Shown here piece by piece: positions 10,867 to 28,955 of a stretch of 64,000 nt of DNA. Source of the stretch: an uncultured Lachnospiraceae bacterium (GTDB lineage: Bacteria > Bacillota > Clostridia > Lachnospirales > Lachnospiraceae); NCBI GenBank assembly GCA_946414885.1, contig CAMKQH010000006.1, positions 1-64,000 of the forward strand, written 5' to 3'. A program made the position numbers and the translations under genes. Below the pieces are notes generated by a model that ran no database searches, was not told the origin of the DNA, and saw only the letters and a program-made list of their open reading frames with translations. The stretch's first letter is position 1. The number at the start of each line of letters is the position of its first letter.

Positions 10867-10925
10867 GATAGTGATGAGGTTAATTCGTCAATGGTTGCGC
10901 TTAATAAATGAATGGGGGATTATTC

Positions 10926-12788: not shown

Positions 12789-14094
12789 GGATAATAACTC
12801 GCGGCGAAAAGAAGATTTTCGTGATGTTTCCAGTTTGGTTAACATTGTGGCCAATAAGACTATGCTTAAGCTAGAACAGGAAGGCGTTTTTATTTTTCCT
12901 GAAATAATAAAGGATTCAGATGACATTACTAAAGATCAGATGATTTTACAGGGAATAAACGATTGCTATCAGTCGGGTAATGTCATGGGGTATATTGGTT
13001 ATGGTGAAGAAAGACTAATTATTGAGTCGCGCTTTAGTAATGGCGAAGAAGATTTCTTTTTTCAGTATCTTTTGGAACGAGTTCTTGAAGTGCCTAACAT
13101 AGTGGATTTAAAAGTGGAAGCAAACCAGCGAAATAGAATTTATAACTTATTGCTTTTTATGTTTCCGCATTACTTAAAATCGGCAATGCGAAAGGGGCTT
13201 TTCAAGACATACATAAGGCGGTGCTATAATGATGAAAATGTGAGGGGTTCTATAGATATTGCGAGGCACATTAGTAAGAACACGCCATTTCAGGGAAACA
13301 TAGCATATAATCAGCGAGAATATGATTTTGACAATTATCTAATTGAACTCATCCGGCATGCTATAGAATACATAAACGGAAAATCGTATGGAAGCAATCT
13401 CCTTGGCACGATTAAAGATGAAGTCAAACTAATAGTTGATGCAACACCTAAATATAGAATTGCTGACAGAAGAAAGGTCGTCGAGTATAATCAAAATCAT
13501 GTAGTAAGGCATGCGTTTTACCATGAATACAGAGCATTGCAGCAACTATGCCTTTTAATCCTTAGGAACGAAAAAAATCAGATTGGACTTGGAACAAGGA
13601 GAATGTACGGTATTCTTTTTGATGGTGCATGGCTGTGGGAAGAATATATAAACAAGTTGGTGGGGGATAAGTATTATCATCCAATGAATAAAAGCAGAAG
13701 TGGCGCCCAATGGTTGTTTGCGGGAAATAACGGGCTTATATATCCTGATTTCATCGGCAAGAATGCAAATAATAGGATTATAGCTGATGCCAAATATAAG
13801 CCAGAAGAGAATATTCGAAATAAAGATTATCTTCAGATTGTGGCATACATGTATCGTTTTGATGCAAGAAGAGGCGCATATTTTTATCCGGAAAGCAAAG
13901 AGGGTACGGATGAGATATTTAGACTCAATTGCGGAATCTCCCATGAGAAAAACGTAAAAGCCAGAAACGATGTAATTATTTTGAAACATGGTTTAAAGAT
14001 TCCGCAAAAAGTAAGTGGCTATCTTGAATTTAAGAAGCTTATGAAAAAGAATGAAACCTGTTTTATTTCTGAACTGAAGGCGTTTGCAGAATAA
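12769..14094 (+). CDS. mcrC: McrC-type nuclease subunit
   Basis: McrC binds the McrB ring and cuts DNA. The C-terminal half carries a PD-(D/E)XK active site seen as LIYPDFIG (about 322-329) and IIADAKYK (about 336-343). The N-terminal half is the usual McrC scaffold. The start at 12769 is preferred because AGGAG at 12754-12758 lies about 10 bases before it; an alternative ATG at 12760 sits too close to that site. The gene begins inside the end of mcrB, so the two products are translationally coupled, as expected for subunits of one complex. The length of 441 residues is somewhat longer than E. coli McrC. Confidence 0.9.
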   Translation: MKVFRIKDNNSRRKEDFRDVSSLVNIVANKTMLKLEQEGVFIFPEIIKDSDDITKDQMILQGINDCYQSGNVMGYIGYGEERLIIESRFSNGEEDFFFQYLLERVLEVPNIVDLKVEANQRNRIYNLLLFMFPHYLKSAMRKGLFKTYIRRCYNDENVRGSIDIARHISKNTPFQGNIAYNQREYDFDNYLIELIRHAIEYINGKSYGSNLLGTIKDEVKLIVDATPKYRIADRRKVVEYNQNHVVRHAFYHEYRALQQLCLLILRNEKNQIGLGTRRMYGILFDGAWLWEEYINKLVGDKYYHPMNKSRSGAQWLFAGNNGLIYPDFIGKNANNRIIADAKYKPEENIRNKDYLQIVAYMYRFDARRGAYFYPESKEGTDEIFRLNCGISHEKNVKARNDVIILKHGLKIPQKVSGYLEFKKLMKKNETCFISELKAFAE

Positions 14095-14174
14095 TTATTT
14101 TTTTATGGACATTGGAAGTTTGGATATGTGATTTGAATTCATTTGGTAGTCCCAATGGGAGGAGATATTCTTTG

Positions 14175-15149
14175 ATGAAAAACAAAATTGTATTGCTATT
14201 TCTTATGCTTTTGATTGCAACACTGTTTGGCGCTTGTAATGACATGTTTAATATTCCTAAATCTCAGGAAAATACGATAGATGCATCAGGAAAAAGCGAG
14301 GAGACTGATGAACCCAGACAAAAGGAGACTGCAGATAAGTTGGAAGCGTACGAAATGACTTCATCATCCATGACGGAAGATAACTTTTCGATAGAAAGTG
14401 AGGAGATGAAGAATACAAATACTTCAGAAGGATATTTAATGGATGCAAGGGTTCGGGATGCTGCCTTTACAGATTGTCTGATTCAAGTTAACAACATGGT
14501 GCTTAAGGCTGTTGACAATGGCGCTAATTATGCGGACATGAAATACACAGGTACGGTTTCGGAATTGATTGATCAGATTAACTCGAAATCGGAGGAAGAA
14601 TTATATTATTATAATGTTAAAGATATAAATATTAATCCGGATATTAGTGTTTATAATCCAGATATGCTTATTGCAAACACTCCTTTAGATTCAAGGATAT
14701 TTGTCAGTGACAAAGAGGGTAAAACCCTTTTAGAGTTGGAATACCATAATGATAGTAAAAGAACTTGTGCTCTAAAAGATTGTTTGGCGAATATAGTTAT
14801 CCATATTCCAGGATATGAACCAACATGCGAATTTCCCACTTTTATTTGGAAGAACATAGATGCTGATAACAGTACATGGACATATTCTTCCGTTACCGAA
14901 CTGTTTGAAGAATTTAGAGATGATCCAAGATTTTTCATTTCGGAGATGAATATGTCAAATGGGCTGGAGTATAGAATATCATTTGACATCTTGGATCATG
15001 ATAACATCTACAATACGGGTAAGCATGTGAACTTTGGCTACACATTCATATTTGATCCCGATACAGCTGATTTGATTAACATTGAAGCCAATTGGGACGG
15101 TGGGTTAAACATTTTGGGACGTCACATGTATTTTGAATTTATTGATTAA
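14175..15149 (+). CDS. Predicted lipoprotein of unknown function
   Basis: The protein of 324 residues starts MKNKIVLLFLMLLIATLFGAC: a charged tip, a hydrophobic stretch and a lipobox LFGAC with the lipidated cysteine at residue 21. A Ser/Thr/Glu-rich linker follows (about 25-90), then a globular part of about 230 residues that I do not recognise. It is expected on the outer face of the membrane. GGAGGAGA at 14158-14165 serves the ATG at 14175; the upstream in-frame ATG at 14112 would spoil the signal peptide. It lies 80 bp after mcrC and before the riboswitch promoter. A link to the defence genes cannot be shown. Confidence 0.7.
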   Translation: MKNKIVLLFLMLLIATLFGACNDMFNIPKSQENTIDASGKSEETDEPRQKETADKLEAYEMTSSSMTEDNFSIESEEMKNTNTSEGYLMDARVRDAAFTDCLIQVNNMVLKAVDNGANYADMKYTGTVSELIDQINSKSEEELYYYNVKDININPDISVYNPDMLIANTPLDSRIFVSDKEGKTLLELEYHNDSKRTCALKDCLANIVIHIPGYEPTCEFPTFIWKNIDADNSTWTYSSVTELFEEFRDDPRFFISEMNMSNGLEYRISFDILDHDNIYNTGKHVNFGYTFIFDPDTADLINIEANWDGGLNILGRHMYFEFID

Positions 15150-15258
15150 ATATGTCCGATGGTATTAATAGGGTATGACGCCCTGGTTGTTATATAGAAT
15201 AGATGAGGTGATAAGAATTTTGTTTTCTTAAAAATGACAGTTATAGTTGGTATTCCTC

Positions 15259-15288
15259 TTGACAGAATTCGCCTAAATGAATTATAAT
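15259..15288 (+). promoter_or_regulatory. Consensus sigma-A promoter of the Zorya/DrmAB-like operon
   Basis: TTGACA at 15259-15264 and TATAAT at 15283-15288 are both perfect consensus hexamers with an 18-bp spacer. Transcription would start near 15295, about 20 nt before the riboswitch aptamer. The flanking stretch 15150-15258 holds no gene and no convincing structure. Confidence 0.85.
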
Positions 15289-15316
15289 ATAGTACATAAG
15301 AAGAAAACGAAAATAT

Positions 15317-15407
15317 GGTAATACGAATCAGCAAAACAGTCGAAAGGCTGCGGCGCAAAACTAATAGGGCCTGTAAAATGGTAGCCAGTTGCAGTGTATT
15401 GGTATTA
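15317..15407 (+). ncRNA. Cyclic di-GMP-I (GEMM-I) riboswitch aptamer
   Basis: The GEMM-I landmarks occur in order: closing stem TAATAC (15319-15324) with GTATTA (15402-15407); GCAAAAC; a five-pair stem CAGTC/GGCTG with a GAAA tetraloop; the near-invariant GGCGCAAAAC; GGGCCTG; and ATGGTAGCCAGTTGC as the 3' half of the second stem. The GAAA loop and the GGTAGCC receptor side are the parts that dock in the known c-di-GMP-I structure. It sits directly between a consensus promoter and an intrinsic terminator, the standard layout for transcription control. The downstream operon should therefore respond to c-di-GMP. The sign of the response cannot be read with certainty. Confidence 0.9.
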
Positions 15408-15408
15408 G

Positions 15409-15448
15409 GCATTCAAAGCCCTGGAAGGGTAGCTTTGGGTGCTTTTTT
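15409..15448 (+). terminator. Intrinsic terminator of the c-di-GMP riboswitch (expression platform)
   Basis: CAAAGC (15414-15419) pairs with GCTTTG (15432-15437), extended by inner CC/GG pairs and an outer GCA/TGC, and six T follow at 15443-15448. It begins one base after the aptamer closing stem. The 5' arm GCCCT (15418-15422) can instead pair with AGGGC (15366-15370) inside the aptamer, a possible antiterminator that ligand binding would block; that would make an OFF switch. Confidence 0.85.
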
Positions 15449-15469
15449 ATTTGAATGAAAGGTAGATAT

Positions 15470-15688
15470 ATGATGAACGATTATTTGACAATAAAAGAAA
15501 CGGCGGAGAAGTGGGAATTGACGCCAAGACGAGTTCAGAAAATGTGCTCAGACGGGAGGATCGAAGGAGCCGTTAAGTTTGGACGGGATTGGGCTATCCC
15601 CATCAATGCAGAAAAACCAAAGGATGGAAGAATGACAACTGGTGAGTACAAGGATTGGAGAAAAAAGATACGCAAAAAAACGGAATAG
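15470..15688 (+). CDS. Small helix-turn-helix protein (MerR/excisionase-like)
   Basis: The protein of 72 residues has YLTIKETAEKWELTPRRVQKMCSDGRIEGAVKFGRDWAIP-type sequence, the winged-helix fold of excisionases and MerR-like DNA-binding domains, followed by a basic tail. It is the first gene after the riboswitch terminator. AAAGG at 15458-15462 lies 7 bases before the ATG at 15470; an in-frame ATG at 15455 sits right after the terminator and lacks a site. It may autoregulate the operon, or may simply be a common accessory HTH protein of this group. No effector domain is present. Confidence 0.75.
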   Translation: MMNDYLTIKETAEKWELTPRRVQKMCSDGRIEGAVKFGRDWAIPINAEKPKDGRMTTGEYKDWRKKIRKKTE

Positions 15689-15701
15689 AAGGTGCATGTT
15701 A

Positions 15702-16127
15702 ATGGATAAATACTATACTTTGCCAGAACTTTATGAAACCAAAGAAATAGATGAAGCATTTGTAGAGGTCTATAACAAGTTGTATGAGAAAGCTAAGGCT
15801 AGAGTGCGAGATAAGAATGTATATTTAAGAGCTTATCTTGACAAGCCAAGAGAATCTTCGTATGACGCACTGGATTTCAAACAAGATGCGATTATGGTCG
15901 AATGTGTTTTTTTAAGACAAATGACAAGGGACATGCAATGCGCTGAGGGACATGAATTAAAAAAATCTTCTATTAGGAATCGGGTAAAAGGACGACTTAA
16001 GGGAATATACTTGATGACATGTCCGATATGTAAAAGAATATACTCAGACATGACTGAAGACATAGAGAAACTGGAGCACTTAGGAATACCTTACTACATT
16101 GTTGAAGAAGGGAAGAACAGAAGATGA
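15702..16127 (+). CDS. Small zinc-ribbon-like protein of unknown function in the Zorya-like operon
   Basis: The product of 141 residues has a helical N-terminal half and a candidate metal site C80...H84...C107/C110 (CAEGH and CPIC) in the C-terminal half. I do not recognise the family. AGAAGG at 15687-15692 fits the ATG at 15702 (9-base spacing) better than 15696 or the longer frame from 15642, which overlaps the upstream gene. Its stop overlaps the zorA start (ATGA), so it is translated together with the motor. It lacks an HNH motif, so it is not a ZorE equivalent by eye. An operon-specific adaptor or nucleic-acid binder is a guess. Confidence 0.65.
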   Translation: MDKYYTLPELYETKEIDEAFVEVYNKLYEKAKARVRDKNVYLRAYLDKPRESSYDALDFKQDAIMVECVFLRQMTRDMQCAEGHELKKSSIRNRVKGRLKGIYLMTCPICKRIYSDMTEDIEKLEHLGIPYYIVEEGKNRR

Positions 16128-18112
16128 AAAACGAAATTCACTTTTTGAGATGGTGCACGTGGATAATTTTTGTATTAGGAATTATAGTGGCGTTAGTGTT
16201 TAAGTATGCGCATGCCGGAACACTGGACATGTCCATAGATTCCAATATGATTATTATGTTGATATTCTTTGTTTTTGTTTTTTGTTTCTTTTTGCGTGCG
16301 TTCCTTAAGTTTGGCATAGGCAATAAGCTTATAATGAATGTAAACATAGTGACGGAACAAATAAAAACATGGAAAGATAATGGCTCTAAACCGCATGAAA
16401 TTATGGGAAGGATCATATCAGGCGAAATTTCGTTTGATAATGATGAAATGAAAAATGCTTTAGAACAGTATAAACAGGATGTTAAGGATATGATGAATGC
16501 ATCGGGCGACACATATCTAGACATTGACGCGTATATAAATAATTCCATTATTGATAAAGAGATTCGCACATATTTCCTAAACCAGATTTCGGGTACTATG
16601 ACGGGTTTAGGTATTCTTGGAACATTTATAGGTTTGTCCATTGGTTTGAATAGTTTTAATCTGAGTGGTACTTCCTCCGACATAACTAACCAGATACAAC
16701 CATTGATGGAAGGAATCAAAGTTGCTTTCCATACTTCGATAGTAGGTATTTTTTATTCAATATTCTTCAACCTTATTTATCGAAGATTGCTTACTAAGTA
16801 TCATAATGAGGTAAATACGTTTCTCACAACCTTTCATAAATGTGTAATTCCGATTTCAGATAATGGAACGGAAAGCACAATGATTAAATATCAGAAAAAG
16901 ATTGAAGCATTGCTGGAAAGACAACTTGAGGAGTCTGTAAAAAGAAATATTGCTGAATCAGAACAAAATAAGATATGGAATGGTAGCTTAGATAATATAT
17001 ACGGAGCCTTAAACAGAAGCAATAATTTAGTTGGACACATAAGTGAGGAGGTTTCAGGTAGCTTTACGAGAGTGATGAATGATGTTGTCGTTCCGGAAAT
17101 CCGCAAGATGGGAAAAATCGTCGAGGAGTTTGCGAAGAATACTCATAAAGACCAAGTGGAAGAGTTGTCCAGATTGGTAAATACGTTTGTCCAGGAAATG
17201 AAAAAAGCATTGGGTAGTAGCTTTGAAGATTTGGCATCTATCATAAAGGAAACTAATGAATGGCAGAAGAAATCGCTTGATGAGATGCAGAATGTCTTGG
17301 ACAAAGTTAATGCAACTACGGTCGATTTGGTTACGATTGATGGTTTGATTGAAGATGCAATTAAGAGCGTTTCTGATTATTCCGCAGAAATTGAGAAGAT
17401 GCAGGAGGCAGTTAACAGAAATCTTGAAAGTCTGAACGTGCAATGTGATCTGAATAATGATATTATTCAAAGCCAGACTCAGGAATTGGCCGAGATTAAT
17501 AAGAGACAAGCGGCATTGCAATACGGAATGTCTGAGTCGATTAAACAAATTACGGAATGTTCTGAGAAGACCACCAAATATGTTGCTGATGCCTTGGAAC
17601 AGGTTAAGAGTAGCGCGGAGGAAGTGACGGAAACAATAACTTCAAGTACGGAAGAAGCACTGGAGAATATCCGACAAAAGACTGAAGATACTGTTGCAAG
17701 TATTGAAACGCTGTCAACTGAGGTGATGGATAAGCTCAACAATCAAATTGAGGACGTAAATGAACTGGATGATCAGGTAATGTCAGATATTTCCGATGCG
17801 GCCGATCGTTTGGGCAGTGTCGTTGAAGATTTGGATGAGCGAATGCAGGAAAGAATCAAGGAAACATTTATAACGTTTGATCAGCAACTAACCCATATTG
17901 TTTCACACTTGGCGAGTGTGCTTCAAGAGATGGAAAAAGTATCAAAGAGTACCAAAACTTCATATGATGGCATTTCTGGAAATATTGAAGACCAATTCAA
18001 TGAGTTACAGAGTAAACTGGAGGAGTATTTGGAATATGCTGACAAACTGCATCATGATATTTCAAATAAGTGGAACCAGTATAGACAGATTTCACTGGAG
18101 GAGAAGCAGTAA
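16124..18112 (+). CDS. zorA: ZorA-like MotA/ExbB-family motor protein with long coiled tail
   Basis: ZorA forms the stator-like proton-driven membrane motor of Zorya antiphage systems and carries a long cytoplasmic tail that signals to effector subunits. The 662 residues show membrane segments at about 11-27, 41-62, 157-178 and 197-221; the latter two, with GTMTGLGILGTFIGLSIGL and AFHTSIVGIF, match the MotA/TolQ/ExbB core. From about 235 to the end the sequence is heptad-rich coiled coil (repeated EEV, EEAL, ELDDQV patterns), as in ZorA tails. It overlaps the upstream gene by 4 bp and abuts zorB. The tail and defence neighbours argue against a flagellar MotA. Confidence 0.9.
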   Translation: MKNEIHFLRWCTWIIFVLGIIVALVFKYAHAGTLDMSIDSNMIIMLIFFVFVFCFFLRAFLKFGIGNKLIMNVNIVTEQIKTWKDNGSKPHEIMGRIISGEISFDNDEMKNALEQYKQDVKDMMNASGDTYLDIDAYINNSIIDKEIRTYFLNQISGTMTGLGILGTFIGLSIGLNSFNLSGTSSDITNQIQPLMEGIKVAFHTSIVGIFYSIFFNLIYRRLLTKYHNEVNTFLTTFHKCVIPISDNGTESTMIKYQKKIEALLERQLEESVKRNIAESEQNKIWNGSLDNIYGALNRSNNLVGHISEEVSGSFTRVMNDVVVPEIRKMGKIVEEFAKNTHKDQVEELSRLVNTFVQEMKKALGSSFEDLASIIKETNEWQKKSLDEMQNVLDKVNATTVDLVTIDGLIEDAIKSVSDYSAEIEKMQEAVNRNLESLNVQCDLNNDIIQSQTQELAEINKRQAALQYGMSESIKQITECSEKTTKYVADALEQVKSSAEEVTETITSSTEEALENIRQKTEDTVASIETLSTEVMDKLNNQIEDVNELDDQVMSDISDAADRLGSVVEDLDERMQERIKETFITFDQQLTHIVSHLASVLQEMEKVSKSTKTSYDGISGNIEDQFNELQSKLEEYLEYADKLHHDISNKWNQYRQISLEEKQ

Positions 18113-18931
18113 ATGCGAAAAAGTGTTGATAATGTTAAAGAACCAGAGGAGTTGACATTCTGGCAATCATATTCTGACATGATGGCGGCATTGCTTCTGG
18201 TATTCGTTTTAATCATTGCGTTTGCCATAAGTCTGACAAAGTCGACTTATGAGGAAAAGCAAGCGGAATTAGAAGCAAGAAACGCCAAAATCAATGAATA
18301 TGAGGAAATGCTTCAGCAAAAGGAAGCAGAGATCGAGGAACAGAAAACAAGGATTGAAGAACAAAAAGTTGCATTTAGGCAGCAACAGGAAAAACTTGAT
18401 TCCATTGTTGGGATTAGAGCTACGCTAATTACAAAACTAAAAGATGAGTTTAAGGATTCCAAAATGAATATCTTGGTTGATCCTGAAACGGGAGCAATCT
18501 CGTTTGATTCGAATATTTTGTTTGATGTCGATAGATCTGTATTGAAGCCAGCCGGGAAGGAATTCTTAAATGAGTTCTTCCCCATGTATTTTGAGACATT
18601 GCTCAGTGATGAGGTGAAGGATTATGTTTCTGAAGTTATTATAGAAGGGCATACAGACAATACAGGTACGTATTTGCATAACCTTGACCTGTCTCAAAGA
18701 AGAGCGTCTGCCGTTGTTGAGTATTGTTTGGGTGATAGAAGTAAAATGTTTGGTAAAGGTCAGATTGAAACGATCCGCTCCTTAGTTACGGCGAATGGAA
18801 GGGCCTTTTACGAACTGAAATATTTGGAAGACGGTAGCGTAGATCTTCAAGCATCAAGGAGAGTAGAAATCAAATTTAGACTTAAGGAAGACGAAATGAT
18901 TCAAGAGATGACGGATATCCTTAGCAAATAA
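18113..18931 (+). CDS. zorB: ZorB-like MotB/OmpA-family peptidoglycan-binding motor protein
   Basis: The 272 residues begin with a single membrane segment FWQSYSDMMAALLLVFVLII (about 17-36) that contains the conserved Asp22 expected to carry protons, then a coiled stretch (about 46-105) and a C-terminal OmpA-type domain with EGHTDNTG and LSQRRASAVVEY that binds peptidoglycan. This is the ZorB layout. The gene starts at the base after the zorA stop, so the two subunits are coupled. In Zorya the ZorA5B2 complex senses phage entry at the envelope. The DMMAALLLVF pattern is closer to ZorB than to flagellar MotB. Confidence 0.9.
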   Translation: MRKSVDNVKEPEELTFWQSYSDMMAALLLVFVLIIAFAISLTKSTYEEKQAELEARNAKINEYEEMLQQKEAEIEEQKTRIEEQKVAFRQQQEKLDSIVGIRATLITKLKDEFKDSKMNILVDPETGAISFDSNILFDVDRSVLKPAGKEFLNEFFPMYFETLLSDEVKDYVSEVIIEGHTDNTGTYLHNLDLSQRRASAVVEYCLGDRSKMFGKGQIETIRSLVTANGRAFYELKYLEDGSVDLQASRRVEIKFRLKEDEMIQEMTDILSK

Positions 18932-18947
18932 TGAGTGAGGTAGGACT

Positions 18948-20153
18948 ATGGAGAAATACTATGTCCCATCGCTGTTGATAAATGAAGGTCAGCGTGTCAA
19001 GGAAATGTTTCCTAAGGTGGCAAAGGTGATTAAGCCAGGCGGAATGGATGATTCATTAAAACAACTGATTTACATACTGGTTAAATTGAAACCGGCACAT
19101 GTGAGTCGATTTGGAAAGGAACGATCAGAAGCAGATATTTCTTCGCTTGCTGGATATGTTGTGACCAACACGCTGAATGTCAATTGCACGAATATCTATG
19201 CACTGTTAGAAGAATATGCTTCGCCTAAAGATTGGGAGATCATGTTTGGTAACTGGCAGAATTATTCAGAGCGTCAAGAACCCATGGGATTTTTGAAACG
19301 AGGAGTATTGACGAATCCGAGATTTCAGGCATATTTGGCTGATAAAGATATTGGACAGGAGAATCTTTCTTGGATAGATCATAGAGAGAAGGTTCAGATA
19401 CTTTGTAATTACTGTAAGGGAGCGGAATCCTTAGATACATACAAAGAAAGCTTGAAGAAATTTGGATTAATAGAGGATACGCTTCTTATGAATGAATGCC
19501 TTTCCAAATTCTTCTTAAATTGTACGGTAAAAGCCTATCAAAATGCAGGAGAGATAAATATATGTGGAGCATTTAATAAACTGTCATCAGAAGACAAACT
19601 ATCGATGATAATTAATTTTGTTAAGGTCTTCACATTACAAGAGCTAAAAAAATATATGGGAGTTTGTCAGACTTTTGAATCAGAAGCAAATAACAAGAAA
19701 TTTGCGGATAAGCTTAAAAGCAAATTAAGAACAAATCTTTTAGCGGATAAGTATGATAAATGGATTAATGCTTTGAAAATTGTGGAGGCCTTCGCTGATG
19801 ATGAAGATCCTTACAGAAGAGAATATTGGCTTCGCTTCTCCGATCAATCGGTTAATGAGATAACCCGTTTTGGTGATTTGACTAATCAAGTACTGATCAT
19901 GGATTTTGGCAGGTATGTGATTACTGAATTTGGAGAAAAAGCTGCGGGAAAGGCATATCTTTTTACGAAGGAATATTTCGATAAGAATTACAAATGGTAT
20001 ATTTCATTTCATGCAAAGAATGAATATATTCATAAAGTAAACAAAGATATAAATGCGTTTGAGAAATTGAAACATTTCCCTCCTTATGGTGGGTGGTGGG
20101 ATATATTTGATGATGCCCTTAGAAAATATGGAATAGTGTATAATAAGGTGTGA
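18948..20153 (+). CDS. zorC: ZorC-like EH-signature protein
   Basis: The 401-residue soluble protein follows zorB by 16 bp. Its C-terminal quarter (about 290-398) has YWLRFSDQSVNEI, a MDFGRYVITEFG...GKAYLF core and a closing HFPPYGGWWDIFDDALRKYGI. That pattern matches the EH-signature domain that defines ZorC of type I Zorya, a DNA-binding effector partner. The N-terminal 280 residues are helical and show no motif I recognise. The identity rests on the domain pattern and on position after zorA and zorB. Its usual partner ZorD, a SNF2-type helicase-nuclease, is absent; a UvrD-like helicase gene overlaps its end instead. Confidence 0.78.
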   Translation: MEKYYVPSLLINEGQRVKEMFPKVAKVIKPGGMDDSLKQLIYILVKLKPAHVSRFGKERSEADISSLAGYVVTNTLNVNCTNIYALLEEYASPKDWEIMFGNWQNYSERQEPMGFLKRGVLTNPRFQAYLADKDIGQENLSWIDHREKVQILCNYCKGAESLDTYKESLKKFGLIEDTLLMNECLSKFFLNCTVKAYQNAGEINICGAFNKLSSEDKLSMIINFVKVFTLQELKKYMGVCQTFESEANNKKFADKLKSKLRTNLLADKYDKWINALKIVEAFADDEDPYRREYWLRFSDQSVNEITRFGDLTNQVLIMDFGRYVITEFGEKAAGKAYLFTKEYFDKNYKWYISFHAKNEYIHKVNKDINAFEKLKHFPPYGGWWDIFDDALRKYGIVYNKV

Positions 20154-20155
20154 TT

Positions 20156-22552
20156 ATGGGAAAATGGAATTCAATCGAAGAAGCGTATAGATTTGTAATC
20201 AAGTATTTTGTTTCTGGCTCCACGGATGTTAGCCGTAGTGATATACGCGAGGCGCTGGATTATTGTGTTGCTGAAAAGAACGCAAATGCACATTATCTGG
20301 CGTATGCATTAGATTATGATGAGACTGAACGAAATGGTAAGAGTTTGTCATTAGATAATCTTTGGGTAGCTGCTGAAAACGGAATTCCTGGGGCGCAATA
20401 CGACCTTGGTCTTCATTTGTTCTACGGAGAAAATGTAGAAAAAAACATACTTCTTGCGCTAACATGGATGGAGCAAGCAGCTACGCAAGGCTATTTGGAA
20501 GCTTGTAGAACATTGATTAGGCTTTATACTCATGACAGTAGGGTGAGAAGAAATCCTGAGCGAGCAAGCTTTTGGCAGGACAAACTGGATGGAGGATCGT
20601 TGGCGGACAGATTCTCTCTTTATCCTCTTTCAGAACGAGACATCCGCGTAGATGCTGAAAGTACTTGGCAAGAGCAGGACGACAAATCTAAGACATCCTT
20701 TGCCAAACTGTTCACGACAGTAAAACAAGACGTGGTTATTGAGGCGCCCTATCGTACAAATATGATCGTTAATGCAGGCCCGGGTACAGGCAAAACATAT
20801 ACCTTGATCCAAAGAATAGCGCATTTGGTTAAAAATGAAAATATTGATCCCAGTAAAATTGTCGTGTTTTCTTTTACTAGAGCAGTAGTAAAAGAAATAA
20901 GGAACAAAGTAGAAAAGAAGTTTGAGAATGATTCGGCAGCTTCTCGGAAAGTGGATATCAGTACGTTTCACAAGAATGCATATGCTGCTTTGCAATTTGC
21001 AAATAAATTAGGAGAATTTGATGATTGGGAAAAGGTGGATTTAGACATTTCAAGGATGATGTATGAAGACTGTATGGTGAAAGGAGCTGAACTACTAGAA
21101 AAACATCCTGAAATTATTGCGGATTGGGAATATATTATCATAGATGAAATACAGGATATCAATCATGCCAAGGCATACTTTGTGTTGCAATTACTTGAAG
21201 CGTGTAGATCAAATCAAATACCATACCTCTTATTGGGGGATTCATGCCAAGCCATATACGATTATTTAGATACTGTGGGTATAAGAAACTCTGCGGGTAT
21301 ACAGATTAAGTCATTGGAGTTTTATAAAAAAGTGATTAATAATGCGGACGAAAGTACAAGGTTTTATAGCTTTGACATTAATGAGAATTATCGCTCTGTT
21401 GAGAAGATAAAGTTACAAGCATTGCCACTCAGAAATGTTATTTTAAGTGACGATAACGATACGCTGAAAGATACTGTGGTTGATTATAAGAATAGCATAG
21501 TTTCTTTGGATTTTGAGGAGATTGAAGCATTTGTAAAAGAGCATTCTAATGATAAGATTTGTTTGCTAGAATGGAAAAATATTCATGCTAGGTATATTTC
21601 CACGAAACTTAAGAAAAGAGGTGTACAGAATCAGTGCGTACTTAATATTCAGCGAGATGCATATCCCCGCTGGATAGGAGAGGTGTTTGGAGGGTGTACC
21701 GAAGACAGTATTTCAGAGGAGGTATTAAAGAAATTATTCTTAAAATCTGGTAAGGATGTTGAAGATGCACGTGTATGCTGGAATGAAACAAAAAAATCAG
21801 AACATGTTAAATCTGAGATCATACCAATGAAAACATTTCTTCTTATTCTTTTGGCGCATAATCTCGATGATTTGTTTTTGGATGAATTAGATAATAACCT
21901 TATTGTATCCAACGTGCACAGATCCAAGGGTTTGGAATATGATTATGTTTTGATAGACAATGGAATTATAGATAGTGGTGCAAATAAGCTTGAAAATGCA
22001 CGAGTACTTTATGTGGCAATGACCAGAGCAAAGAAGGAAACCATTAATCTGAAAAACGCTAGTCTCCCATATAAATTAAAAACAGACAAGGGAAGAAATT
22101 ATAAATGGGAATCGATTAGCAAAAAGAAGCTTAGATTAAAATATATTGAAATCGGACATGTATCAGAGAAAACGGATGCCGGACCAGAAGACTTTGTTAT
22201 CAGTGACATGATGGAGAGCCAAAGGATTATTGGTCAACTAAAAGTTGACGACGAAATAGAGTTGATTTTTTCGGAGGAAGAACAGAGATACGTGATCATG
22301 GCGCATGATAAGGCAATTGGTATGATGAAGGAGGCTTTTAGCCGCGAGGTAAAAAAACATAACTATGAAAATTACCCCAAGCGCCTTAAAGATATCTTTG
22401 TTGATGGAATCTATACTTATATTGGGCAACCCAATAGTATAATTACGAATTATGAGAAAAAAGCTGCAGAGTATTGCCCGGAAATAGGCGTGTATAGAAT
22501 TTGGAATTATGTTTCATTTTCCGGACTGGCACGTGCTGTTTATGACGAATAA
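20156..22552 (+). CDS. Sel1-repeat/UvrD-family SF1 helicase
   Basis: This 798-residue protein joins a helical repeat region to a UvrD/Rep-type helicase. Residues 40-130 contain Sel1/TPR-like repeats (PGAQYDLGLHLFYGE..., MEQAATQGYLEACRTLIRLY). The helicase has Walker A NAGPGTGKTYTL (about 204-215), FSFTRAVVKEI, Walker B IIDEIQDIN (about 327), VHRSKGLEYD (about 587) and YVAMTRAKKE (about 618). No nuclease motif is evident. The ATG at 20156 is preferred to the GTG at 20150 because AAGG at 20144-20147 lies 8 bases upstream. It overlaps or abuts the zorC stop. In this operon it stands where ZorD is normally found, so it may be a replacement DNA-processing effector; that is inference. Confidence 0.85.
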   Translation: MGKWNSIEEAYRFVIKYFVSGSTDVSRSDIREALDYCVAEKNANAHYLAYALDYDETERNGKSLSLDNLWVAAENGIPGAQYDLGLHLFYGENVEKNILLALTWMEQAATQGYLEACRTLIRLYTHDSRVRRNPERASFWQDKLDGGSLADRFSLYPLSERDIRVDAESTWQEQDDKSKTSFAKLFTTVKQDVVIEAPYRTNMIVNAGPGTGKTYTLIQRIAHLVKNENIDPSKIVVFSFTRAVVKEIRNKVEKKFENDSAASRKVDISTFHKNAYAALQFANKLGEFDDWEKVDLDISRMMYEDCMVKGAELLEKHPEIIADWEYIIIDEIQDINHAKAYFVLQLLEACRSNQIPYLLLGDSCQAIYDYLDTVGIRNSAGIQIKSLEFYKKVINNADESTRFYSFDINENYRSVEKIKLQALPLRNVILSDDNDTLKDTVVDYKNSIVSLDFEEIEAFVKEHSNDKICLLEWKNIHARYISTKLKKRGVQNQCVLNIQRDAYPRWIGEVFGGCTEDSISEEVLKKLFLKSGKDVEDARVCWNETKKSEHVKSEIIPMKTFLLILLAHNLDDLFLDELDNNLIVSNVHRSKGLEYDYVLIDNGIIDSGANKLENARVLYVAMTRAKKETINLKNASLPYKLKTDKGRNYKWESISKKKLRLKYIEIGHVSEKTDAGPEDFVISDMMESQRIIGQLKVDDEIELIFSEEEQRYVIMAHDKAIGMMKEAFSREVKKHNYENYPKRLKDIFVDGIYTYIGQPNSIITNYEKKAAEYCPEIGVYRIWNYVSFSGLARAVYDE

Positions 22553-22554
22553 GG

Positions 22555-25500
22555 ATGAAAACTATGAAATACGATGAGTATTATTTGGCGAGAAATCAAA
22601 TAACGAAAATTATCCAAGAGGATATCCTGGGACCGCTCGAAGACGATGAGGTGTTGGAAGAAACACCGATAAGCTATTATCTGGTTGGAAAGCTATATCC
22701 GAGGAAAGTATCAAAGATTCGAAATGACGAGGATGAGGAAGCTTCGTTTGTGGATGCAGAGATTCTTTCCCTTGGAAATGGAGAGTACCCATCGGCTATG
22801 GGCATGACTTTTGCCGTGTCGACGACTACGAAAGAACTTAAAGTGTCGGTTGAAACGGCTAAGTACGTACCTTTTGATGAATTGAAAAAGTGGCAGAGGA
22901 TTCCCATAAGGCAGACGGTTACTATTGACTTAAGTCAGTTGAAGGCGGAGCGAAGAATACAAGCAGTAATTGATGGCGAGTTAATGATGCAAATAAGTTC
23001 TTATGAGCATTCAGCCGTAAATGATCTGAAACTTACGGTAACAATAGTGAATACTGCTGAAACACCAGACATCTCTTATCGTGAATTATCGCAGCTCGCT
23101 TATTTTCAACCTAAAATCATGATATCGAATTTGAAAGAAGGTTCTTTCTTACCGCTTTATAACGCAAACATAACTGTGGACGATGATGAAACCAAGGAGT
23201 TTGAACTGCTTTATCACGAAGTCCAAAGCTTTGCGGTTGGTCATGGGATTTCCGTGGATTGGGAAAAGAATGCTTCTGGAGAAATTAGTAAAATCTTTAC
23301 GGAAGTTATACCGCATTATGATTTATTACAGATGAAACCGTCGAATTGTATGGACAAACGGTTTTTATCGATGAAATATCTCGCCAATGCTGATTCGGAT
23401 GAAATGATACATATTGTTTCCTCCCTTATCAATGATTATCATAAGTGGATTCAAGCGCAAGAAACAAAAGCAAAAGATTTGAGAATAGAACTAAAAGCAT
23501 CGGCAGAATCGAATCTCAGTAAATGCAAGACAGTCCTTCGGAGATTGGAAAAGACAAAAGTACTGTTTGCCGACAGGAATGCGTTGAAAGCATTTCAATA
23601 TGCAAATCAGACAATGCTTGAACAACGGATCTGTACGCATGAGCCTGACATGGTTGCCAACGACGCTGAGGTTACTTGGTATCCATTCCAGCTTGCATTC
23701 ATTTTATTGGAATTGGAATCAATTGTTCATCCAGACTGCGAAGATAGGAAGTTGGTGGACTTGTTGTGGTTCCCTACTGGCGGCGGAAAAACTGAGGCAT
23801 ACTTGGGGATAGCCGCATTTACGATCTTTTACAGAAGAATTAAGCTTCAAGACAATGATTTAGGCGTTGCAGTCTTTATGAGGTATACGCTTAGACTTCT
23901 TTCGTTTCAACAGTTTGAGCGTGCTGCGGCAATGATCTGCGCAGCTGAAAAGGTAAGAAAGGAACAAGGTCTTGGAGGAACTGCATTTGGCATAGGGTTA
24001 TGGGCAGGCGGAAGTTTAACGCCTAATTCACTAAAGGATGCTGCAGATTATTTGAGAGGGATGACAAAGGACAATACGTCTCCGGCACAGCTGAAAAAAT
24101 GTCCTTGGTGTCGTACGCAGATTTTTGAATCTGATTATGAAGTGAACCTAAAGAATAAACGTATGTATATTCGTTGCCATAATGAAAAGTGTCTTTTCCA
24201 TCATGGATTGCCCGTTCATTTGGTTGACGAGGACATATATACGGTAAAGCCGTCTTTTGTTATAGGAACAATAGACAAGTTTGCTCAGGTTGCGTTTAAG
24301 GAAGAAGCAGGGTGTCTGCTGGGCGTGGATTTGCAGAATCCGCCTGAATTAATCATTCAGGACGAGTTGCATTTGATATCAGGGCCTCTTGGTACCATTA
24401 CTGGTTTGTATGAAGCGGCTATAACAAAGTTGTGTGCCCAAGGAAGCATAAAGCCTAAGATTATCGCTTCAACCGCAACAATCAAGAATGCAAAGGAACA
24501 GCTTAATGCTTTGTATGGGATGGATTATGCTCAATTCCCGCCGCAAGGGATTTCCATTAATGATTCCTTTTTTGCTTGTGTGTCAGGTGAAAAGGAGAAA
24601 GCATCCAGAAGGTATATGGGCGTTCTAGCCTCTGGCGCGTCCAGAGCGCTTACGTTTAACCGAATTATGGCAGCATTACTGTTCGCCAGTAGATATTTGA
24701 TTGATGCGGGCTATTCGGAAGCGGTTATCGATTCCTTCTGGACTGAAACGGGATATTTTAATACGTTGCGTGAATTAGGATCTGCGCTTTCACGAATTGT
24801 TGACAGTGTTCAGGACAGATATCAATACCTTAAGAATACTAAGTTTAAGGACAGGTACCCGTTCAAAAGCGGAAACGAAAGATATGACCGTTACTACGAA
24901 CTTACAAGTAGACAAAGCAGTAACAACCTTGGAGAAGCGATACAAAATAACCTCTTGATTTCTTATAAATCGGATGGGTCGACAAAACCATATGATTTTC
25001 TTGTGGCATCGAACATGATCTCCGTGGGAGTGGATGTTTCAAGGTTGAATTCCATGCTGGTTGTTGGGCAACCAATTAAAACTTCGGAATATATACAGTC
25101 TTCTAGTCGCGTTGGCAGAAATACGCCGGGGTTAGTCATTGTTGAGTATCATCCAAGCATGGTCAGAGATCGTTCTTTCTACGAACGGTTTATTCAATTT
25201 CATTCTTCTTTATACAAGTTTGTGGAAGCATCCAGCCTTACGCCGTTTTCAGACAGAGCAAGGGACAGGGCGTTACAGGCGTTGTATGTTATCTTATGCA
25301 GATATTTTGTTCCTGGATTGCGAGAGAACAAGGATGCTAAGAATTATACAAGGGACATTCCAGAACTGGAGAAGGTGCGCAAATATATATTGGATTATGT
25401 TTCGATAGTGGATCCAGAGGAAAAAGAGAATGTGGCTCGTGAGATTGAGGAAATAGAAACGGTTTGGGATGAAAAAGCTAGTCATTCATCTGAATTGATT

Positions 25501-25626
25501 TATTGGTCATATGTTGAAAATGACCACATGCTTTTCCAAAAGGATTACTTGGAGGGAAACAGATTTCGCATGATGAATTCCATGCGAAGCGTGGAACCGG
25601 CAATCAATGTTTATGTGGAAGAATAG
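22555..25626 (+). CDS. drmA: DrmA-like SF2 helicase (DISARM family)
   Basis: The 1023-residue protein has an N-terminal region of about 380 residues without clear motifs, then Walker A WFPTGGGKTEAYLG (about 403-416), a zinc-ribbon insertion with CPWC and CHNEKC (about 518-545), the DELH box QDELHLISGP (about 601), SATIK, and a C-terminal lobe with NMISVGVDVSRLN and SSRVGRN. This architecture matches DrmA of DISARM, which with DrmB loads on phage DNA with unprocessed ends. It starts 3 bp after the helicase stop; an in-frame ATG at 22564 has a better placed AAGG and may be the real start. DrmB follows 13 bp later. DrmC and DISARM methyltransferases are not in the window. Confidence 0.82.
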   Translation: MKTMKYDEYYLARNQITKIIQEDILGPLEDDEVLEETPISYYLVGKLYPRKVSKIRNDEDEEASFVDAEILSLGNGEYPSAMGMTFAVSTTTKELKVSVETAKYVPFDELKKWQRIPIRQTVTIDLSQLKAERRIQAVIDGELMMQISSYEHSAVNDLKLTVTIVNTAETPDISYRELSQLAYFQPKIMISNLKEGSFLPLYNANITVDDDETKEFELLYHEVQSFAVGHGISVDWEKNASGEISKIFTEVIPHYDLLQMKPSNCMDKRFLSMKYLANADSDEMIHIVSSLINDYHKWIQAQETKAKDLRIELKASAESNLSKCKTVLRRLEKTKVLFADRNALKAFQYANQTMLEQRICTHEPDMVANDAEVTWYPFQLAFILLELESIVHPDCEDRKLVDLLWFPTGGGKTEAYLGIAAFTIFYRRIKLQDNDLGVAVFMRYTLRLLSFQQFERAAAMICAAEKVRKEQGLGGTAFGIGLWAGGSLTPNSLKDAADYLRGMTKDNTSPAQLKKCPWCRTQIFESDYEVNLKNKRMYIRCHNEKCLFHHGLPVHLVDEDIYTVKPSFVIGTIDKFAQVAFKEEAGCLLGVDLQNPPELIIQDELHLISGPLGTITGLYEAAITKLCAQGSIKPKIIASTATIKNAKEQLNALYGMDYAQFPPQGISINDSFFACVSGEKEKASRRYMGVLASGASRALTFNRIMAALLFASRYLIDAGYSEAVIDSFWTETGYFNTLRELGSALSRIVDSVQDRYQYLKNTKFKDRYPFKSGNERYDRYYELTSRQSSNNLGEAIQNNLLISYKSDGSTKPYDFLVASNMISVGVDVSRLNSMLVVGQPIKTSEYIQSSSRVGRNTPGLVIVEYHPSMVRDRSFYERFIQFHSSLYKFVEASSLTPFSDRARDRALQALYVILCRYFVPGLRENKDAKNYTRDIPELEKVRKYILDYVSIVDPEEKENVAREIEEIETVWDEKASHSSELIYWSYVENDHMLFQKDYLEGNRFRMMNSMRSVEPAINVYVEE

Positions 25627-25638
25627 CGGGGACAAGGT

Positions 25639-27435
25639 ATGGCTGTATTTACTGCAGGAAATAAAAAGCATATCAAATATGTTGGAGAAATCAGAAAATC
25701 TAAGTTGACAAATTCTGCTGGATGTGGCGCTTTGGTAGAGTTCCCAGGATTTTCAGGAATTATGGGAGGACAAAATCTTTGGGACGTAAGTAAAGCAGGA
25801 AAGTTTCGCATACATGAGAAGACGCTGGAGGATTTCTTAAAAAAAGAATATTTTCTTCAGGTCTCTTCTGAATTGCAGAATAAAAAAGTGTATGAGGAAG
25901 CATACAAAATCCCTGTTTTTAGATTCCCGGAATATTACTTTTGCCCGTCATGTCATGAACTGGATTATGCCAGGCGGTTGGCAAAAAACTTTGGAACGAA
26001 TACAGACATGATTGATCCCCTTTTGTGCAGCCGGTGTAAAAACGTGGAGCTTATTCCTTCTCGTTTCGTCATGGCATGTGAAAATGGTCACATAGAAGAT
26101 TTCCCGTATCAGTGGTGGGTTCACAGGGGAGAAAAATGTGACAATCCAAGATTAATGCTTGAATACAAAGGATATACTGGAGGATTGGAGGGAATAGTTG
26201 TTTCCTGCGCTACTTGTAAGAAAGCGAATTCCATGAAAAACGTGCTTAATAAAGAAACAACCAGGACGCTTCGGTGTAATGGAAAAAGCCCATGGCTAGG
26301 TAAGACGGTACAATGCAATTGTGGAAAAGAAGTGAGGGTTCTTCTGCGTGGAGCAACAAACATGTATTTCCCGGATACGATATCTGCATTAACCATTCCA
26401 CCTTGGAGTACTACGGTGCAAAAAGTGATTGCGGAGAATTTGGAAATACTTAAGAGTATGTTTTTTGAGGGAATGCCTGAAGAATACAGAAGAAAGGCAA
26501 CAGACAATTTTTTTGAGCAACATGATTTACAGGAGTATTTGCATTGTTCGAAGGAAGATTTTTTTGCGCAAGTGATGCTACGCCTCGGAGGGAATAACGC
26601 GATAATCAAGGAGGCATCAGATTTTCAAAAGGATGAATACAGAGCGTTCATTGGACCTGACGTAGATGATGAGATGTTTAAGACTGTATCAGCGGAAATT
26701 GACGAAGAACTTTTGCCATTCATTCAAACGGTTAAGCTTGTAAAGCGCATTAGGAAAGTGAATGTTTTGACCTCGTTCAAGCGCATTGATGCTTTTTCTA
26801 ATGGCTCTGCGCCATTATCTAATAAAGCTGAGAAATGGCTCCCGGCAACTGAAATGCTCGGGGAGGGGATTTTTATTGAATTCTCCAAAGAATGCATTGA
26901 AAATTGGGAGCTACGAGTCGGATCACGCTATGATGCAATGCAGTTGAAATACAATGATAGCCACTTAGGCCCTAGATTCGGTAGTTTTTCCAAGAAGATG
27001 GTTCTGGCACATTCCATTTCGCATTTGATCATGAGAGAGCTGGCGTATACATGTGGTTATGATGCTGCTTCCATTAGTGAGCGGTTGTATGTATCCGATG
27101 ATAAGAGTGACGCGTGGATGGCGGGAGTGCTTATTTATACAACCACCAGTTGCTCAGATGGCAGTTTGGGTGGATTGGTTAGACTGGGACAGAAGGATCG
27201 ACTTAAAAAGGTTATAGATTCCATGTTGAAAAAAGCTGTTTGGTGTTCCAATGATCCAATTTGTGTTGAGTCGGAAGAACTTGTGGATGATGCCATAAAT
27301 TACGCGGCATGTCATGCATGCATGTTTGTACCTGAGATTTCATGCGAGTATGCGAATAAAGTGCTTGATCGAGTTGCAGTAGTTGGTAAGCCGGGCAATG
27401 AAGAGATGGGGTATTTTTGTGATCTTTTGAAATAA
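25639..27435 (+). CDS. drmB: DrmB-like DUF1998 protein (DISARM family)
   Basis: At 598 residues it has DrmB length. The N-terminal part has a zinc-binding pair FCPSCHELDYARR and LLCSRCKN (about 98-133) and further cysteines in CATCKK and CNCGKE. The C-terminal DUF1998 domain shows HSISHLIMRELAY (about 455-467), SERLYVS and IYTTTSCSDGSLGGLVRLG, ending with CHACMFVPEISCE. DrmB pairs with the DrmA helicase and regulates its DNA binding. It ends the operon that begins at the c-di-GMP riboswitch. A GGGGACAAGG site lies just upstream of the ATG. No clear terminator follows; a hairpin at 27479-27500 lacks a T run. Confidence 0.85.
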   Translation: MAVFTAGNKKHIKYVGEIRKSKLTNSAGCGALVEFPGFSGIMGGQNLWDVSKAGKFRIHEKTLEDFLKKEYFLQVSSELQNKKVYEEAYKIPVFRFPEYYFCPSCHELDYARRLAKNFGTNTDMIDPLLCSRCKNVELIPSRFVMACENGHIEDFPYQWWVHRGEKCDNPRLMLEYKGYTGGLEGIVVSCATCKKANSMKNVLNKETTRTLRCNGKSPWLGKTVQCNCGKEVRVLLRGATNMYFPDTISALTIPPWSTTVQKVIAENLEILKSMFFEGMPEEYRRKATDNFFEQHDLQEYLHCSKEDFFAQVMLRLGGNNAIIKEASDFQKDEYRAFIGPDVDDEMFKTVSAEIDEELLPFIQTVKLVKRIRKVNVLTSFKRIDAFSNGSAPLSNKAEKWLPATEMLGEGIFIEFSKECIENWELRVGSRYDAMQLKYNDSHLGPRFGSFSKKMVLAHSISHLIMRELAYTCGYDAASISERLYVSDDKSDAWMAGVLIYTTTSCSDGSLGGLVRLGQKDRLKKVIDSMLKKAVWCSNDPICVESEELVDDAINYAACHACMFVPEISCEYANKVLDRVAVVGKPGNEEMGYFCDLLK

Positions 27436-27539
27436 AATGATCGTTCCATGATGAAATCAAGAGATAAGAATAGCGAAAGAAAGATGGCTGACTATCTTTC
27501 CGAACGAAAGAATGCCGTTTCAATACGAAACCACCCCTA

Positions 27540-27569
27540 TTGAAATCGAAATAAGGATAATGTTACAAT
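27540..27569 (+). promoter_or_regulatory. Promoter of the Lrp-type regulator operon
   Basis: TTGAAA at 27540-27545 and TACAAT at 27564-27569 with an 18-bp spacer lie about 50 bp upstream of the regulator gene, after the end of the defence operon. Confidence 0.6.
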
Positions 27570-27619
27570 AAAACTACAGAGTCGACGCTGTTTCATATTT
27601 AATCAAAAGGAGGACCCGC

Positions 27620-28141
27620 ATGCAGATTGACGGTTTGGACGAGCTGGACAATAAGATCCTGTCGGTGATAAAAGAGAATGCGCGCCTGAGTTATTCGGAA
27701 ATAGGCGAAAAGGTGGGCGTGTCCAGGGTGTGCGTGAAGAACCGCATGGCAATCATGGAGCAAAAGGGAGTGATTGAGGGGTATTATACCAAGATCAATC
27801 TCGACAGCGCAACGGAAGGGACGAGGTTCTTTGTGGAGATCGTAACGCAGCCGGATCAATTCGAGCAGGTTGTAGATCGCATCGCAAGCAAGGGAGTTAT
27901 TCGCAGGGTATATGCCGTGTCCGGAGATTGCAGGATTTTTGCAGAAGGGGTTGCTCCAACTAGATCAACGTATGAAGTATTTTTGCGAAACCTAAGAATC
28001 AATTTGACTGGCGTAAGGAGCATCACGGTAACGGAAGCTCAGTATGCCATCAAGAATACTTATGGAGGCGTCGACTACGTGAGCCTGGAGCAACGGAAAA
28101 ACAGAAAAGAAACGGAGGATAACCAGGAGAATCAGTCGTGA
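27620..28141 (+). CDS. Lrp/AsnC-family transcriptional regulator
   Basis: The 173-residue protein has the Lrp layout: an N-terminal winged helix-turn-helix (LDNKILSVIKENARLSYSEIGEKVGVS, about 8-60) and a C-terminal ligand/oligomerisation domain (about 65-150, FFVEIVTQP...VYAVSGDCRIFAEG). Such proteins act as feast-famine regulators that bind amino acids. AAAAGGAGG at 27605-27613 precedes the ATG. It leads a cluster with a free alpha-CTD protein whose frame opens at its stop, which suggests a joint regulatory role, but no target can be named. Confidence 0.88.
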   Translation: MQIDGLDELDNKILSVIKENARLSYSEIGEKVGVSRVCVKNRMAIMEQKGVIEGYYTKINLDSATEGTRFFVEIVTQPDQFEQVVDRIASKGVIRRVYAVSGDCRIFAEGVAPTRSTYEVFLRNLRINLTGVRSITVTEAQYAIKNTYGGVDYVSLEQRKNRKETEDNQENQS

Positions 28142-28161
28142 CGCCTTCCAGGGAGGACGAC

Positions 28162-28545
28162 ATGGCAGGGAATAAGGAGAATTATGAAAAGATAAAAGGC
28201 ATCCTTGCGGCTACGCAGCTTCTGGATGCAGCGGAAAGTAAGGGCGGGCAATTTCGCTTTCCGATATACATGACTGAATCAATGGCAAAGACGGACGTGT
28301 TGGAATTGGATTTAAGCGTTAGGTCTTCTAATTGCTTAAAGCGCGCGAACATCATGACGATCGGAGATCTGTGTTCCCAGATACATTGCAGCACTGACCT
28401 AAAGAAAATAAGGAATTGCGGCGCCACGAGCGTTGCGGAAATCATGGATCACTTGTTTGCGTATCAGTTCTTTGCATTAAAGCCTGAGAGGAGAGGCAGT
28501 TACCTGGCAAAAGTTTTGGAAATGAATGCCGGCATAACGGAATAA
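28162..28545 (+). CDS. Stand-alone RNA polymerase alpha C-terminal-domain-like protein
   Basis: Residues about 45-110 (LDLSVRSSNCLKRANIMTIGDL...DLKKIRNCGATSVAEI) match the helix-hairpin-helix C-terminal domain of RNA polymerase alpha, the part that contacts UP elements and activators. At 127 residues there is no alpha N-terminal assembly domain. GGGAGG at 28151-28156 selects the ATG at 28162; the frame also opens with GTG at 28138 overlapping the Lrp stop. Such free alpha-CTD proteins could bind DNA or regulators without polymerase. The last 20 codons of this gene recur as remnants at 31984-32028 and 33260-33316, showing past duplication of the region. Confidence 0.8.
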   Translation: MAGNKENYEKIKGILAATQLLDAAESKGGQFRFPIYMTESMAKTDVLELDLSVRSSNCLKRANIMTIGDLCSQIHCSTDLKKIRNCGATSVAEIMDHLFAYQFFALKPERRGSYLAKVLEMNAGITE

Positions 28546-28553
28546 TGATTTTG

Positions 28554-28594
28554 AAAAGGCCGGCGTGATTGGATGGTTTCACGCGGGCCTTTTT
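28554..28594 (+). terminator. Intrinsic terminator after the alpha-CTD-like gene
   Basis: AAAGGCC with GGCCTTTTT, and inside it GCGTGA with TCACGC, form a strong hairpin followed by a T run. Nearly the same hairpin recurs at 32036-32078. Confidence 0.88.
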
Positions 28595-28732
28595 AGACCC
28601 TGAATTCTGCAAAATGCTTGCAGTGAGGACGGCCGAAGGAGTGGAGGTATTTTTATAGGACAGCCTAGGTAGTAGCTTTTAAGCAGAACAGTAAACCAAT
28701 GTCGCTTTGAAAGAAGAAACGGAGGGCTGATT

Positions 28733-28951: not shown

Positions 28952-28955
28952 TGAT

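Follow-up and report, generated by a model that had tools for sequence, protein, structure and literature searches.

In a 64,000-nucleotide stretch of DNA from an uncultured Lachnospiraceae bacterium (contig CAMKQH010000006.1), hereafter the window, a promoter, a GEMM-I riboswitch aptamer and an intrinsic terminator stand directly ahead of an operon that joins genes of the antiphage systems Zorya and DISARM. On balance we favor the explanation that this is a genuine GEMM-I leader whose terminator governs read-through into the genes for ZorAB, a 401-aa protein, a UvrD-like helicase and DrmAB, and that it is part of a recurrent cassette heading exchangeable, often defense-type cargo in the genus Acetatifactor. 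Behind this explanation lie observations of sequence, structure, synteny and recurrence, and of different cargo behind like leaders. Transcription would begin a short way upstream of the aptamer, which would read a cyclic dinucleotide, most likely cyclic di-GMP (c-di-GMP), while the RNA is being made, and the outcome of binding would pick either termination at about 15448 or read-through into the defense genes. The features of the leader and operon are listed below in window coordinates.

15259 to 15288, + strand: sigma-70 promoter, TTGACA-N18-TATAAT, 12 of 12 consensus bases
15268 to 15281, no strand: TTCG-N7-GAA dyad (inverted repeat) within the promoter spacer, candidate operator
15320 to 15396, + strand: GEMM-I (c-di-GMP-I, RF01051) aptamer, covariance model 47.2 bits, gathering score 35, E 4.2e-06
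15408 to 15448, + strand: intrinsic terminator, stem 15408-15443, T's 15443-15448
15455 to 15688, + strand: small HTH_17-like protein of 77 aa that closes the recurrent cassette (PF12728, 26.4 bits, just below the cut-off of 27)
15702 to 16127, + strand: 141-aa protein, function not assigned (open reading frame listed from GTG 15642)
16124 to 18112, + strand: zorA, MotA/ExbB-type with a long tail (PADLOC ZorA, 104.9 bits; PDB ZorA 8qyk, E 1.1e-11)
18113 to 18931, + strand: zorB, MotB/OmpA-type (PADLOC ZorB1, 235.9 bits; PDB 8qyd_F, E 8.3e-18)
18948 to 20153, + strand: 401-aa protein, predicted to be helical, its C-terminal part alpha/beta
20150 to 22552, + strand: Sel1-repeat and UvrD/Rep-like helicase (PF00580, 103.7 bits; Sel1, 35.8 bits)
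22555 to 25626, + strand: drmA helicase (PADLOC, 739.5 bits; PDB DrmA 7s9v, E 1.1e-146)
25639 to 27435, + strand: drmB, MZB Zn-binding partner (PADLOC, 276.2 bits; MZB, 30.9 bits)

The initial annotation had placed a consensus promoter, a GEMM-I aptamer and a terminator before eight close-packed genes, and all of these stand as described. The RF01051 covariance model, which it had proposed as a check, scores the aptamer above the gathering score, and this is the sole Rfam match at gathering threshold in the window. P1 of the aptamer pairs 15320-15325 with 15395-15400, and position 20 is an A at 15330 (Rfam column 11, immediately 5' to P2). The promoter is the sole 12 of 12 site among 46 promoter-like sites found in 14000-29000. 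Similar promoters are present in the leaders of two other genomes of our genus sample of 138 Acetatifactor genomes, G441 and G524 (at G524:C3), where the terminator letters differ and the hairpin is similar. The exact form TTGACANNNTTCGN7GAANTATAAT, a pattern itself derived from these leaders, occurs seven times in the genus sample, each time upstream of a GEMM-I. The terminator region (15395-15456) folds at -18.9 kcal/mol (z -2.36; equalled by 5 of 200 shuffles) and the hairpin alone at -17.8 kcal/mol; a simple terminator scan did not have 15408-15448 among its calls, probably because the stem is bulged. Of 12 leaders tested, 10 have a hairpin terminator.

Pair conservation was analyzed over 23 named pairs in 16 chosen genus leaders. 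Standard pairing was found in 91.3% of cells, against 15-40% with partners slid, and 5 of the 23 pairs showed changes on both sides. The covariation score was 0.176 against 0.117 for shuffled leaders and was reached by none of 500 shuffles, while the number of cells with a two-sided change (10) was matched by 17 of 500. One P1 pair is seen as CG, UA, AU and UG.

The eight operon genes span 15455-27435; for the second, ATG 15702 is a likelier start codon than the listed GTG. From that gene on the genes overlap or are separated by gaps of 0, 16, 2 and 12 bp, in agreement with the earlier statement that no gap exceeds 16 bp past the second gene. ZorA and ZorB are common to this operon and Zorya, whose type-specific genes are ZorCD, ZorE or ZorFG; no other Zorya protein was matched among the operon proteins at E 0.001 (PADLOC). 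The window operon has a UvrD-like helicase and DrmAB instead, with the 401-aa protein in place beside zorB. DrmA and DrmB are likewise common to the operon and DISARM, which also has a methyltransferase and/or DrmC, DrmD and DrmE. None of these was matched among the operon proteins or the neighboring genes scanned, and unlike DISARM the window joins drmAB to ZorAB. The ZorAB-UvrD-DrmAB arrangement thus extends the Zorya and DISARM families by an unusual operon.

The 401-aa protein gave no Pfam or PADLOC match, its homologue search returned only itself, and its PDB profile search was empty; its structure model (mean pLDDT 82.6, a per-residue confidence score) found nothing below E 0.001 with Foldseek. 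A relative directly follows zorB in 8 of 82 zorB-related loci, of which 80 were found by scanning genome contigs with a zorB alignment and two come from viral contigs. A Glu and a His are invariant in nine relatives and are reminiscent of the ZorC EH signature, with no family or fold match behind the likeness.

The entire order zorAB-401-UvrD-drmAB occurs in two of the 82 loci, L081 from an Acetatifactor metagenome-assembled genome (MAG; JAEEVF010000005.1) and L082 from a Riflebacteria MAG. L081, which is the same locus as that of G441, has all eight genes, with identities to the window of 85% (HTH, helix-turn-helix protein), 60% (second gene), 57% (zorA), 75% (zorB), 48% (401-aa protein), 56% (UvrD), 79% (drmA) and 75% (drmB). 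It carries its own GEMM-I at 7308-7383 (44.5 bits) between a similar promoter and a similar terminator, and the P2 sequence of this aptamer is changed with most pairs retained. Homology between the two loci starts at the promoter, at 15258. A search for GEMM-I before related operons, as suggested by the initial annotation, was positive in G441, the sole case among the 82 loci. The pairing of leader and operon looks non-accidental, since the operon recurs in another Acetatifactor genome and there, too, follows a GEMM-I leader of its own. L082 carries the operon at 30-59% identity on a contig that begins just upstream, so that the leader region lies outside it. The viral contigs contain two ZorAB loci only (ZorB identity 38%). 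A zorB match is present in 70 of the 138 Acetatifactor genomes (e.g. L228-L255); the full-length ones outside the window genome (G000) and G441 are about 300-380 aa, at roughly 38-46% identity.

The leader also recurs ahead of other genes. RF01051 has 78 matches in 35 genomes of the genus sample, of which 76 lie inside the stretches examined; the two outside them score below the cut-off. The unit of promoter, GEMM-I, terminator and HTH gene was found in 11 copies in six genomes: two in G000 (the window and C18:55874), one in G441, three in G524, one in G503, two in G498 and two in G414. The HTH protein of G524:C3 is 84% identical to that of the window. Cargo was annotated with Pfam and PADLOC, chiefly at GEMM-I loci with the HTH gene. 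Five of the 11 units head defense-type cargo, two of these five by domain content alone. The cargo of each unit is as follows.

Window and G441: ZorAB-DrmAB
G524:C11: Druantia-like DruE (617.6 bits) and a NERD-UvrD protein
G524:C3: TnsA-like endonuclease, 402 aa protein and kinase/NB-ARC protein of 1369 aa; defense-type by domains alone
G503:C89: dynamin, HerA/DUF87 and non-specific endonuclease; defense-type by domains alone
G000, contig C18 (G000:C18:56204-59268; L256:10204-13268): 727-aa protein without a Pfam match and a metallo-beta-lactamase-fold protein resembling LmuA and RTasMBL
G498:C26 (L329): GGDEF-EAL protein directly after a GEMM-I with A at position 20 (A20) and HTH gene
G414:C65 (L328): protein 86% identical to the GGDEF-EAL of G498:C26, behind an A20 GEMM-I and HTH gene
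G524:C9: fucosidase, then FtsX-type permease
G414:C67: a set including a transglutaminase-domain protein
G498:C67: a 65% identical relative of the G414:C67 set

The cargo on C18 of the window genome is possibly another defense system, judging from its resemblances. The A20 GEMM-I and HTH gene ahead of GGDEF-EAL genes (L328, L329) could form a feedback loop on c-di-GMP. In the wider family, 59 stretches (L161-L190, L192-L220; about ten of them chance pattern matches) contained no such HTH gene. The initial annotation had suggested that a Zorya motor under c-di-GMP would link defense to the motile/sessile switch. A GEMM-I does head a Zorya/DISARM-like operon and is kept there in a second species; as an account of the unit this is too narrow, since the same unit also precedes Druantia-like, kinase/NB-ARC, dynamin-HerA, GGDEF-EAL and fucosidase cargo.

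Like leaders with different cargo were found at two sites. At G524:C3 the neighbors on the left match those of the window (hhe 69% and ftsK 84% protein identity), as do those on the right (DnaJ-like 96%, HIRAN 91%). Between them, 445 aligned bp at 83% identity correspond to window 15243-15685, from the promoter to the last HTH codon, and the cargo differs thereafter. Similarly, DNA identity between the C18 site of G000 and G503:C89 is 88-99% in the flanks and 86% in the unit, and the cargo again differs. The flanks of G407:C30 are 91-95% identical to this second site, and an A20 GEMM-I is present there; in that stretch (L335:3333-12688) the GEMM-I is followed about 2.9 kb on by an HTH gene and by genes for proteins of 1296 aa and 771 aa, the latter weakly matching colicin-DNase. 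The 29 kb around the G441 locus contain none of hhe, ftsK, the DnaJ-like gene or HIRAN. The unit therefore occurs with the same operon at a different site, in G441, and with other cargo at the same site, in G524:C3. Part of the identity in flanks and units may reflect how closely the species are related. A tentative extension, which we would not put forward as the likelier case, is that the unit serves as a fixed expression socket at defense exchange sites, where incoming modules (the Zorya/DISARM hybrid, Druantia-like, kinase/NB-ARC, dynamin-HerA) would be put under one cyclic-dinucleotide signal. A regulatory leader at the same place with different defense genes resembles the shared promoter of an integron, with a ligand sensor added.

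Several results weigh against a ligand-responsive leader dedicated to defense genes. In the 16 leaders two-sided changes affected 5 pairs (shuffle mean 3.3), a count matched by 56 of 500 shuffles, and there were 18 further pair types (shuffle mean 15.4), matched by 31 of 500; P1 pairs in 75% of cells, and one named P2 pair is open in 11 leaders. A covariance model (R1) built from these 16 leaders, L081 included, found a leader in L081 alone among the 82 zorB-related loci, many of which are short or cut; as a control it found all 20 given family GEMM-I loci (L161-L180) and none in 14 drmA loci. A strict regular expression on the 82 loci matched L081 and, not credibly, L100. Neither zorAB nor GEMM-I was found in the 14 examined of the 16 other genomes with a drmA match in our family sample of 397 genomes. 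Given L081 as the only case among the zorB loci and these 14 drmA loci, the link of leader and operon appears, as far as seen, confined to one genus. Six of the 11 cassettes lead cargo without a known defense role. A constrained-ensemble test of 10 leaders gave no antiterminator clearly above the shuffled-arm control: between 5 and 49 of 60 shuffled arms paired with upstream bases at least as well as the terminator arm itself, the lowest count being that of G524:C3 (5 of 60). Finally, position 20, where the consensus is G though not absolutely, is A in the window and G441, and A is the base of the GEMM-Ib switches selective for 3',3'-cyclic GMP-AMP (cGAMP).

The ligand of the window aptamer is nonetheless probably c-di-GMP, judging from A20/G20 tandem arrays, two A20 units before GGDEF-EAL genes and the lack of a Hypr serine among the GGDEF domains read. 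The leader has in common with c-di-GMP-I riboswitches (RF01051) the fold, the conserved core and the terminator platform, and differs from them by its A at position 20 and by the antiphage genes behind the HTH gene. A20 and G20 stand in tandem in all five genus arrays read (L267, L268, L269, L276, L297), and of six multi-core family loci two (L213, L214) mix A20 and G20 and four have G20 only. The G000 genome has 34 GGDEF matches; of 30 read, 27 have Asp, three Asn and none Ser at the Hypr position, which we take to be that of a Ser replacing the Asp of GHxxGD. A Hypr GGDEF was accordingly set aside as a source of the ligand.

Sensing of cGAMP by the A20 aptamer, instead of or besides c-di-GMP, with the operon answering a CBASS-type or Hypr-type signal, is in our estimate unlikely, although several facts speak for it. 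G000 has A20 in the window and G20 in its two other GEMM-I. A change from A to G at position 20 is reported to convert a Geobacter aptamer from cGAMP to c-di-GMP (PMC6456294), and PDB 4YB1 is described as a G20A GEMM-I with bound cGAMP, in a report whose cGAMP structure has A14 at position 20 and P2 starting at C15 (PMC6274999). The window shares this A with the Geobacter GEMM-Ib switches, as these reports describe them (PMC6456294, PMC6274999), and differs in having no Hypr-type GGDEF among those read, in the tandem mixing of A20 and G20 in its genus, and in its cargo. Another contig of G000 carries a CBASS-like pair of a SMODS CD-NTase and a 4TM effector (G000:C10:15093-15560; L004). Against a cGAMP ligand, seven of the 138 genus genomes have a SMODS match and G441, with its similar leader, has none; A20 is moreover widespread, and a link from CBASS to the riboswitch was for these two reasons demoted to a rival explanation. 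In the family sample A20 is a minority allele but a common one, with roughly 34 against 291 GEMM-I matches, a rough count in which a length and stem filter kept 34 and dropped 12 of 46 pattern matches in 41 of the 397 genomes. By eye, 17 A20 and 48 G20 cores were read in the genus, from 79 regular-expression matches of which 13 were dropped as not GEMM-like and one site was listed twice; 11 of 66 stretches had no credible core. The mixed tandems, the GGDEF-EAL cargo of A20 cassettes and the absence of Ser among the 30 GGDEF domains read point the same way.

The leader might alternatively be a fixed attenuator whose aptamer response has been lost or lowered, with the HTH protein acting on the spacer dyad as the real regulator, but we think this improbable. 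The dyad may serve as operator for the HTH protein: TTCG-N7-GAA is present in 10 of 13 TTGACA-bearing leaders compared (L334 has TACG...GTA instead, and L336 and L337 lack it), and promoter dyad and HTH gene occur together in most cassettes. The aptamers of the window and G441 (47.2 and 44.5 bits) also score below the G20 copies of G000 (53.3 and 54.1 bits), and no antiterminator stands clearly above the control. On the other side, A20 aptamers in the genus reach 79.8 bits (L261), so that A20 in itself does not indicate decay; the helices are retained in the 16 leaders with some compensatory changes, and P2 of G441, altered in sequence, is still a stem.

If the leader responds to its ligand, as we favor, we lean toward an OFF switch, in which the ligand would cause termination and defense would be higher in cells low in c-di-GMP. 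The 3' side of P1 (15395-15400) ends 7 nt ahead of the terminator stem; the two are separate, so a plain ON design, with P1 and terminator overlapping, is not seen. The lean rests on this separation and on the type I switches of Clostridioides difficile, which are mostly OFF in the account of PMC3649979: their leaders give premature termination products and flgB is about 3-fold lower at raised c-di-GMP, and one type I case that rises 10-fold is described there as unlike the others. In full and truncated leader folds, the 5' arm of the terminator takes a different partner in each of four leaders. Forcing the aptamer lowered arm pairing in 9 of 10 leaders, which would fit an OFF switch, but forced pairs take partners away in any case, and the automatically assigned P1 had 1-3 pairs in 3 of the 10.

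That the riboswitch controls the HTH gene only, the defense genes using a promoter of their own downstream, is very unlikely: promoter-like sites lie at 16160-16251 inside zorA (9 and 10 of 12 bases) and homology between the window and G524:C3 stops at the end of the HTH gene with different cargo beyond, but the genes are joined by overlaps and gaps of 0-16 bp, and the 46 promoter-like sites in 14000-29000 compare with 43.8 expected from shuffles. With a frequency so close to that in shuffled sequence, none of the sites can be singled out as a second promoter. The initial annotation had named a second promoter after 15450 as one finding that would refute its reading, and a weak one may be present.

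In the open literature we found no description of riboswitch control over Zorya- or DISARM-type defense, in keeping with the statement of the initial annotation that none was known; subscription literature lay mostly outside this search. A related case is RCd22-abiF of C. difficile, a defense gene preceded by a leader RNA that carries a premature terminator and is termed riboswitch-like (PMC12373285). It has the defense gene and terminator leader in common with the window, and a small-molecule aptamer is not described for it in the portion of that report consulted (PMC12373285). As the unit also precedes other, unrelated defense-type operons in sister species, a signal molecule of the cell may bear on antiviral defense. 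If the leader switches, antiviral operons would be gated by the molecule that decides between swimming and settling, which would offer a direct way to test the trade-off of defense cost against lifestyle; if A20 means cGAMP, defense operons would be gated by an immune-alarm signal.

Further genes of restriction or defense type lie upstream of the leader at window 789-15149: HsdR-like, DUF4011/Hhe-like helicase-nuclease, FtsK-like, McrB and McrC. Downstream, one further feature stands beside the operon and may belong to the system.

27620 to 28545, + strand: Lrp/AsnC-type regulator and small protein with an RpoA (RNA polymerase alpha) C-terminal domain

The same pair lies upstream of the operon in G441 (L081 6242-7123). 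A short gene of GFFGG/NHYD peptide repeats at window 28951-29260 lies at the right border in the window, G441 and G524:C3 alike.

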